The notes beneath the pieces were generated by a model. That model searched no databases. It was not told the DNA's origin and worked only from the letters and a program-made list of their open reading frames with translations. Below, piece after piece: positions 1,539 through 5,125 of a DNA stretch of 11,553 bases (position 1 is its first letter; every line of letters starts with the position of its first letter). Source of the DNA: Candidatus Desantisbacteria bacterium CG1_02_38_46 (GTDB lineage Bacteria; Desantisbacteria; UBA1551; UBA1559); contig MNUO01000083.1 of NCBI GenBank assembly GCA_001871015.1, positions 1-11,553 on the forward strand, given 5' to 3'. The position numbers and the translations under genes are program-made.

Positions 1539-1771
1539 AAGAGGGAATACACCCAAAATATGAACTGACAACAATAACCTGTGCTTGTGGTAATGTAATT
1601 CAGACGAGATCCACGAAGAAAAACATTCATGTAGAAATATGTTCAAAATGCCACCCGTTCTTTACTGGCAAGCAAAAATTGGTAGATACTGCTGGTAGAG
1701 TGGAGAGGTACAAGAGAAAGTATAAAAAGAAGGAGGCTGATACTGAAAGTGCAGAGAAAACAAGTGCATAA
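1535..1771 (+). CDS. rpmE: 50S ribosomal protein L31, zinc-binding type
   Basis: Small protein of the large ribosomal subunit. The start [10 protein letters not shown], the C16-A-C18 pair and the C36-S-K-C39 pair followed by HPFFTGKQK mark the zinc-containing (C+) form of L31; the four cysteines would bind one zinc. The family usually ends soon after the V-D-T-x-G-R-V motif; here a Lys-rich then acidic tail (residues about 60-78) is added. Its ATG overlaps the rho stop in an ATGA junction and a run of seven G (1526-1532) serves as the ribosome binding site, so translation is probably coupled to rho. The rho-rpmE pairing is common in bacteria, often with prfA next, which is absent here. Confidence 0.97.
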
Positions 1772-3008
1772 GAAAATTTCCATACTTTTTTTGATATTTT
1801 TTTCATTGTCTGTACCCCCCCGTCTTGCTGTCGCAAGACAGCAGGGGGTGCTAATTGCACAGCAGAGCAAGGAACTTGAAGAGAGCAAGAAAAGACTGTT
1901 GCAGATTCAACAGCAAATTAACGAGGAAAAGGAAAGAGAAGAGAAGGTGAGGGTAGCCGAAAGGAAAGAAAAGCAGGCATTGGAAACTGTAAATAAGAAT
2001 CTTGTAAAAACTGAGGGAGAGCTGAAAAAGTATAAAAATAAAATTTTTTCTACGAAGAAAAATTTAAAAATTGCCGAGATAGATTTAAAAAAGAAAGAAA
2101 GGGATTTTCGCGATTACCAGGATTTACTCGCTGGACGTATATCTGCATTTTTCAGAAATATTTTCTTCCCTCTGAGTCAATTGGACGAAATTGAACAGGA
2201 TGCCAGGAATCCATTGAGGAAATATCTAAATTCTCTCTCCTCAGACTGTATCTTGCTTTACAGTGCCATGGACTTAGGAAGGGAATTAAAGGTTTTCGGT
2301 GTTTTCGCCAGTGAGAATGCTGATCTTATCCGGGAGACAGAATTTCAAAAGAAGACAATCGAGGATAAAAAGAAGACATTAAAAACAGAAGAAGTTAAAT
2401 TAACTCGCGTGAAAGTTGTAAAGGAAAAAGAGAAACAGGAATTAGAATCTAAAAAAAAGGAGAAGGAAGTTTCTATATCCAGGGCAAAGGCTGAATTAAA
2501 AAAGTCTCAGAGAAAACAGGAACAATTGAGAAAAACTGCAAGGGAACTTGAAGCAATGATTAAGAGACTTGCAGCCCAAAAAGGTGTGCCTCCGGAAGTC
2601 TTAAAAAAAGAGGCGATGCTGTTCGAGAAGGATAAAGATAATCTTCCCTGGCCTGTTTCCAGGGGAAAAGTAGTTAGTTATTTTGGATGGACATCTACCC
2701 AGCAATATACAGCTTCCATATTTAATCCTGGAATTGGCATAGAAGTTAGCGGAAATGAAAATGTGTACGCGGTGAGTAAAGGTAAAGTTATGTACAGCGA
2801 CTCGTTCCGCAGTTATGGAAAAACTATAATTATTGACCATGGAGGAGGATATTGTAGCGTGTATAGCGGGCTTGATAAAATTTCAGTGAAAACAGGTCAA
2901 GAAATGAAGAGTGGAGAAATAATTGGCAGTATTTCATCAAACATGCATTTTGAAATGCGTAAGGATGCAAAAGCAATTGACCCGTTAGAATGGCTTAAAA
3001 ACAAATAA
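1749..3008 (+). CDS. EnvC-like murein hydrolase activator, degenerate LytM domain
   Basis: Exported coiled-coil protein ending in an M23/LytM fold. Residues 1-29 look like a signal peptide (basic start, hydrophobic 10-22, AVA at 27-29). Long Lys/Glu-rich coiled coils span about 40-128 and 190-285, separated by a less charged segment. The LytM domain is at about 299-419. Positions expected to hold zinc ligands are changed: the HxGxD motif reads N326-P-G-I-G330, the YxHL motif reads Y372-S-G-L, and HxH reads N398-M-H400. The domain is therefore probably not a peptidase, like E. coli EnvC, which activates amidases at the division septum. The 419-aa length fits EnvC. The start is GTG 1749, 12 bases after AGGAGG (1731-1736), overlapping rpmE by 23 bases; GTG 1764 is an alternative. 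The gene pairs with the downstream CtpA protease, as in many proteobacteria. Confidence 0.88.
1812..1851. repeat. Palindromic element inside the envC-like gene
   Basis: A 40-base palindrome with outer arms ACCCCC (1814-1819) and GGGGGT (1844-1849) and an inner stem that can pair two ways: GTCTTGC-TGTC-GCAAGAC (1822-1839) or TGCTGTC-GCAA-GACAGCA (1826-1843, a GNRA-type loop). It is read in frame as residues 22-34 ([13 protein letters not shown]), the end of the signal peptide. Its plan, GTACCCCC then stem, 4-base loop, stem, AxCA, GGGG(G)T, matches the hairpin at 4484-4518 although the inner stem sequences differ. Confidence 0.7.
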
Positions 3009-4483: not shown

Positions 4484-4518
4484 GTACCCCCAGTTTCTCA
4501 CGAAACTAACAGGGGTAC
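4484..4518. repeat. Hairpin element directly upstream of mcsA
   Basis: Outer arms GTACCCC (4484-4490) and GGGGTAC (4512-4518) enclose an inner stem AGTTTC-TCAC-GAAACT (4492-4507); the unpaired bases are C4491 and AACA 4508-4511. The element starts 7 bases after the ctpA stop and ends 2 bases before the GGAGAG ribosome binding site of mcsA. There is no T-run, so it is not a typical intrinsic terminator. In plan it matches the palindrome at 1812-1851. It could stabilise the 3' end of the upstream mRNA, influence mcsA translation, or simply be an inserted repeat. Confidence 0.8.
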
Positions 4519-5034: not shown

Positions 5035-5093
5035 AGGTCCGTAGCTCAGGGCTTTAGCCCTGACCTGCTGTGATTCAGGACTTTAGTCCTGAA
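5028..5093. repeat. Three consecutive palindromes between mcsA and mcsB
   Basis: Three perfect dyads follow each other: GACCT-GA-AGGTC (5028-5039, containing the mcsA stop codon), TCAGGGCT-TT-AGCCCTGA (5046-5063) and TTCAGGACT-TT-AGTCCTGAA (5074-5093). The last two are variants of one unit with compensated stem changes (GGGCT/AGCCC versus GGACT/AGTCC). The third contains, in reverse complement, the palindrome found at 215-232 upstream of rho. There is no T-run after any of them. They look like REP-type dispersed repeats; a role in stabilising the mcsA mRNA end or in partial termination is possible. The remaining bases to the mcsB start (5094-5125) show only a weak purine-rich ribosome binding site, AAAAAGAGA. 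Confidence 0.85.
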
Positions 5094-5125
5094 GGTTGTA
5101 GATAACTTTAGCTATTAAAAAGAGA

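Follow-up and report, generated by a model that had tools for sequence, protein, structure and literature searches.

The DNA analyzed here (the window) is a stretch of 11,553 nucleotides that constitutes contig C92 of Candidatus Desantisbacteria bacterium CG1_02_38_46. It includes a gene for an EnvC-like M23 peptidase, with the sequence AAGGAGG located 11 nt upstream of its GTG start codon. The palindrome that the initial annotation described at positions 1812 to 1851 is present and in frame, and translation from that start codon confirms that it corresponds to residues 22 to 34, including A27-V28-A29. The fold of the palindrome was better than that of shuffled sequences (z of about -4, with 0 of 200 shuffles as good). 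Its proposed length of 40 bases did not stand, as the repeat unit is 36 nt long (Table 1). The EnvC copy lacks stop codons in all six frames. Because 36 nt is a multiple of three and this copy is free of stop codons, it is read through as approximately 12 residues. The element is positioned after the hydrophobic core of the EnvC-like protein and before the mature protein.

Table 1. Features of the window (R2, covariance model of the repeat family; R3, refined covariance model)
Feature	Position	Strand	Evidence or remarks
EnvC-like M23 peptidase gene: signal peptide, coiled coil, C-terminal LytM domain	1749..3008	+	Pfam Peptidase_M23 1.4e-21; match to EnvC model weak
Palindromic element, 36 nt, family copy C92	1815..1850	+	In-frame residues 23-34; R2 E 1.0e-8 (genome), R3 E 9.1e-11 (window)
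Outer stem, 5' arm CCCCCCC	1815..1821	+	Covariation, 26 copies
5' bulge GTCT	1822..1825	+	GTCT in 10/27, TTCT in 10/27, ATCT in 3/27 distinct copies
Inner stem, 5' arm TGCTGTC	1826..1832	+	Covariation
Tetraloop GCAA	1833..1836	+	Commonest loop, 9/27 distinct copies
Inner stem, 3' arm GACAGCA	1837..1843	+	Covariation
3' arm of outer stem, GGGGGTG, with a single mismatch (GGGGGGR is usual)	1844..1850	+	Covariation; R3 match in window
Second hairpin, 5' of McsA-like gene, architecture similar to family	4484..4518	-	Fold; twin at C113:6405; R3 E=0.2

Comparisons were made with the genome of one relative, Ca. Desantisbacteria CG1_02_49_89 (contig MNUP01000147.1), which is from the same phylum but not the same genus. 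The EnvC ortholog of this relative is 45 to 47% identical, and the comparison, which the initial annotation had proposed, revealed that the segment is missing from it. There are 41 residues before ELEE in the window protein when counted from the GTG at 1749 and 36 when counted from an alternative GTG at 1764, versus 21 residues before ELQE in the relative. Subtracting the 13-residue segment leaves 28 or 23 residues. In a simple-rule scan, the best signal-peptidase site with the insert present was between AVA and RQQ, and a site between IA and QQ was usable without it. The insert thus provides a cleavage site but was not needed to create one, because the IA site would serve without the insert. 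It is plausible that residues 22 to 34 comprise the cleavage region, with AVA as the site. The added residues follow the hydrophobic core and bear a good A-V-A site, and therefore part of the insert is probably cleaved off together with the signal peptide.

The genome containing the window is a fragmented assembly of 1.73 Mb in 133 contigs that is 88% complete. A BLAST search of this genome with 101 bases around the EnvC palindrome returned, among other matches, a perfect 35-nt copy on contig C77 (E 7e-12). A genome-wide covariance search, also proposed in the initial annotation, uncovered many further copies: R2 matched 33 loci at E<=0.01 and 38 loci when weaker matches were included. R2 also matched approximately 20 loci in CG1_02_49_89, where R3 gave 30 matches at E<=0.01, a number in which both strands of one locus may be counted. 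No family matches to R2 were found at E<=0.001 in 57 genomes from other phyla. A chance origin of the palindrome, which had initially been left open, can be dismissed in light of the perfect copy on C77 and the 33 loci versus none in the genomes of other phyla.

The consensus unit of the family is 36 nt long and consists of seven C, GTCT, TGCTGTC, GCAA, GACAGCA, and seven G. This arrangement corresponds to a 7-bp C/G outer stem, a 4-nt bulge on the 5' side, a 7-bp inner stem, and a tetraloop, which is most often GCAA or ATGA. Across 26 distinct copies from both genomes, paired cells amounted to 95.9%, versus 81.5% in shuffles, and compensatory cells numbered 46 versus 11, with double changes at nine pairs. 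The covariation score was 0.384 versus 0.110 (26 copies; recomputed on 27). Covariation in this register, with the bulge and the GCAA tetraloop, was already apparent at 5 pairs in 8 copies. For example, the two arms have changed together in copies of the relative, as in TCCCAAC/GTTGGGA and CCCCTGC/GCAGGGG. The initial annotation had proposed a different register (stem, 4-base loop, stem, and AxCA on the 3' side). That pairing is possible in the EnvC copy, but it was rejected because it has no compensating pairs across copies, in contrast to the bulge register. Larger forms of the family, 53 to 77 nt long, carry their extra sequence within the tetraloop. On the opposite strand, most such inserts read as GTAG-headed hairpins, for example CCGAAAGTAGGCTCTCTGGAAGAGC. 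One element is nested in the loop of another in the RNase P RNA gene.

The hairpin at 4484 to 4518 was initially regarded as a second copy of the repeat. The hairpin itself is real, folding better than shuffles (z -2.7), and a single near-identical twin exists elsewhere in the genome, but its assignment as a family copy was not supported: it resembles the family on the minus strand only and matches R3 within the window at E=0.2, which makes it at most a possible member. Other repeats are also present. At 5041 to 5099 and 189 to 253 of the window there are other REP-type palindromes, GTAG-CTCAGGGCTTTAGCCCTGA and TCAGGACTTTAGTCCTGA, together with a 15-bp inverted repeat, TGTCAGGTCTTGACA. The genome as a whole has several short palindrome families. 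At the contig end (1 to 174 of the window), a 58-nt repeat (TAAGAACCTCTTCGAGAACCTTG...) occurs three times head to tail, the last copy being incomplete, and pieces of AAGGTTCTT also flank element copies on contigs C11 and C78.

In-frame copies in recognizable protein genes account for 8 of the 33 loci at E<=0.01. The hosts are the EnvC-like protein, Alr, MiaA, LeuC, OppD, LL-diaminopimelate aminotransferase, an AddA-like helicase, and a UshA-like protein. The frame and the strand in which copies are translated vary across the host genes, with several frames and both strands represented. For Alr, MiaA, OppD, LeuC, and the aminotransferase, the alignment with solved homologs extends to either side of the copy. 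Relative to these homologs, MiaA has a 10-residue insertion (closest solved homolog), the aminotransferase has 16 extra residues, and OppD and LeuC have approximately 28 and 31 extra residues, respectively, numbers that include neighboring REP-like hairpins. A perfect direct repeat of 9 bp, CAAAAGTAG, lies on either side of the copy in Alr (alanine racemase, contig C89). The AddA-like and UshA-like copies, for which no solved homolog was aligned across the insertion site, were counted as in frame from the open frame and the family match, as was a ninth copy with a weaker match (E 0.05) in a GH106-like gene on C131. With one relative from outside the genus as the comparison, none of the protein genes showed an exact empty site. 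The open frames and the housekeeping roles of the hosts suggest that the copies may be functional as coding sequence. Other copies are intergenic or near gene starts, as at MnmE and MiaB; no interrupted or dead genes were found beside those intergenic copies that were tested. Two protein genes had further unusual features. A single open frame on contig C49 (L047, 1330-3060) has both CoaE and LL-diaminopimelate aminotransferase domains, a possible gene fusion, and RtcB on contig C82 (L045, 1-1488) has an apparent intein, with Intein_splicing and LAGLIDADG_3 domains ahead of the RtcB C terminus.

Five further copies are in RNA genes: one each in the genes for 16S rRNA (helix 10), RNase P RNA (P12), and tmRNA (directly 3' of the tag stop codon) and two in 23S rRNA genes (H63 on contig C113 and a helix near the 5' end on C77), with the names helix 10, P12, and H63 assigned in this study. 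Thus, 5 of the 38 copies lie in approximately 0.5% of the genome (P of about 2e-6, with the RNA-gene total of 9.5 kb an estimate). These copies are not clean additions but partly replace an older hairpin. The tmRNA site has a 57-nt form here versus CCCGCC-TTA-GGCGGG in the relative, H63 of 23S rRNA has a 36-nt form versus CCGCC-GTAA-GGCGG, and the 16S site has 36 nt versus approximately 23 nt. No element was detected with R3 in the 16S rRNA, tmRNA, RNase P RNA, and available 23S rRNA pieces of the relative. A family copy is located approximately 150 nt outside the tmRNA gene of the relative, and the P12 region of its RNase P RNA (L128) has its own, different expansion containing GGGACAGTCCC, a palindrome that also flanks the copy on contig C52. 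The 23S rRNA gene on C113 (L014) additionally contains, at approximately 1592 to 2261, an extra stretch of about 670 nt that is missing in the relative and encodes a LAGLIDADG-type protein (YVSGLADGEGCF...); this stretch is probably a homing-endonuclease intron. The predicted tmRNA tag, ANTLVA, is unusually short in both Desantisbacteria genomes (L130 and L129).

Copies of the family are found on two related metagenomic phage contigs from IMG/VR that have portal genes in common, one copy on L125 (8839-8874) and two on L126 (10860-10895 and 10238-10312). Phages may carry the family between hosts. Mu-type transposition genes are found alongside the copy on L125. Apart from the IMG/VR contigs, the phage and plasmid collections that were searched had no match to the family. 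A search of open-licence papers found no report of the family and none that connects Desantisbacteria with palindromic repeats.

The initial annotation interpreted the palindrome as a dispersed, structured repeat that, as in Rickettsia, had entered a gene and been retained there as coding sequence. The many copies, the EnvC ortholog without the segment, and the in-frame copies in housekeeping genes bear out this interpretation. We consider it very probable that the family is a non-autonomous mobile palindromic element of approximately 36 nt that has spread in the Desantisbacteria lineage and that one copy was inserted in the region encoding the c-region of the EnvC-like signal peptide. The family looks like a junk-type repeat that is now translated or folded within the host's own molecules. 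The moving form would be a DNA segment that folds into a hairpin; insertions would persist at sites where they are harmless, with copies in RNA genes simply lengthening an existing helix. Where copies lie in RNA genes, their outer arms stand in for a pre-existing helix, often one rich in C/G, which suggests hairpin-tip entry or hairpin exchange. It is conceivable, as a tentative extension, that a mobile hairpin entering or exchanging the tips of existing hairpins, those of its own copies included, has in this way remodeled four core structured RNAs and supplied peptides that include a signal-peptide cleavage site.

How the element is mobilized is the least certain step. The candidates that fit best would be a Y1 transposase (REP-associated, RAYT-type) that works on hairpins in single-stranded DNA, or an exchange between C/G-rich hairpins. 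The genome has Y1 transposase genes (Y1_Tnp), and no element was found within approximately 1.5 kb of them. The idea that RAYT genes carry the element at their flanks was rejected, as none of the copies lies next to a Y1 transposase gene. GTAG is present within 7 nt on the 5' side of 6 of the 38 hairpins, versus a background of 1.5%.

One alternative is that the palindrome arose by coincidence from the codons of ordinary EnvC sequence. Residues 22 to 34 do form an acceptable c-region for a signal peptide, but a perfect 35-nt copy in the 16S rRNA gene and the absence of the segment from the relative's EnvC leave this explanation with a negligible probability. It could also be argued that the copies are regulatory RNA hairpins, such as attenuators, terminators, or protein-binding sites, that arose gene by gene and were kept for their function. 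The strong conservation of structure by covariation would be expected of such hairpins, as would the intergenic copies and those near gene starts. However, the same sequence recurs in unrelated contexts, including several frames, both strands, five RNA-gene sites, phage contigs, and nested within itself, and the primary sequence is conserved beyond structural need. A regulatory origin is thus highly improbable.

Explanations that invoke a different route of spread deserve more weight. Template switching or gene conversion between C-rich and G-rich hairpins could replace an existing hairpin without a transposase. The outer arms match the ancestral or consensus C/G stem in tmRNA and in H63 of 23S rRNA, as well as in the 5' helix of 23S rRNA (cccccggc/gccggggg), the net gain in length at these three sites is less than the unit, and target duplications are absent at most copies. 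This possibility is nevertheless rather doubtful as the explanation for the family, given that a perfect duplication of 9 bp lies outside the arms of the Alr copy, the copies in LeuC, MiaA, and the aminotransferase add residues to what solved homologs have, and a comparable C/G stem is missing at the relative's 16S site. The family could instead be a MITE of a DDE-type insertion sequence with a 9-bp target duplication. The terminal arms are inverted, and there are 9-bp direct repeats at the copies on C89, C11, C52, and C48, with 5 strong repeats versus 0.2 expected. Only the repeat on C89 abuts the unit cleanly; on C11, C52, and C48 the boundaries are shifted, and two of these lie within another palindrome. 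Duplications are missing at most copies, the 7-bp arms show little conservation from one genome to the other, and no parent element was identified in a search that covered Y1_Tnp. A MITE origin is considered unlikely.

Palindromes that invade both proteins and RNAs have so far been found mainly in Rickettsia, with intragenic REPs scattered elsewhere. The mobile element proposed here makes Desantisbacteria a second, unrelated lineage, providing an opportunity for a comparative test of insertion tolerance and hairpin targeting. It also serves as a caution that, in uncultured phyla, mobile DNA is possible in signal peptides and in the variable helices used for 16S surveys.

The very small repeats of cyanobacteria (STRR and SDR) are very short, dispersed, and reported in RNA genes such as rnpB. 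The Desantisbacteria family differs in sequence and design from STRR and SDR as these are generally known. The GTAG and CGTC REPs associated with RAYT transposases are hairpins of 20 to 40 nt with intragenic copies in several bacteria (Di Nocera 2013, PMC3733652), and CGTC REPs have a terminal CGTC tag, a stem of 8 to 9 bp, a loop of 4 to 5 nt, and a CCA tail (PMC3733652). The Desantisbacteria family is similar in having short hairpins, intragenic copies, Y1/RAYT genes in the genome, and GTAG beside some copies, and CGTC overlaps the junction of arm and bulge in many copies. A terminal tag of either kind, GTAG or CGTC, is missing from most copies. Unlike in GTAG REPs, hairpins preceded by GTAG are a minority (6/38), and the Y1 genes are not flanked by the repeat. 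Unlike in CGTC REPs, CGTC is internal and variable (TTCT, ATCT), and the hairpin has a double stem of 7 plus 7 bp with a 5' bulge, C7/G7 arms, and no consistent tail.

The Rickettsia palindromic elements (RPEs) were reportedly described by Ogata in 2000 and 2002. According to later accounts, RPEs are hairpin-forming dispersed repeats of one lineage that are in frame in many conserved protein genes (PMC2229807, PMC10969869) and are also inserted in tmRNA and RNase P RNA genes (PMC2229807). They are described there as alphaproteobacterial and approximately 100 to 150 bp long, with RPE-4 and RPE-6 shorter (PMC2229807, PMC10969869); RPE-4 and RPE-6 correspond to CGTC REPs (PMC3733652). Like RPEs, the Desantisbacteria family is in frame in conserved protein genes (Alr, MiaA, LeuC, OppD, the aminotransferase, and EnvC) and inserted in tmRNA and RNase P RNA. 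Copies are also present in 16S and 23S rRNA, sites that the available portions of those accounts do not mention for RPEs. There are in-frame copies and RNA-gene copies, and the relative's EnvC and aligned RNA sites are without copies; therefore, the analogy with RPEs holds. Nevertheless, the C/G-clamped unit of 36 nt (53 to 77 nt when nested) contrasts with the length of 105 to 150 bp expected for RPEs, and the host phylum is Desantisbacteria rather than Rickettsiales, so that the family is set apart from RPEs by size, tag, and lineage.
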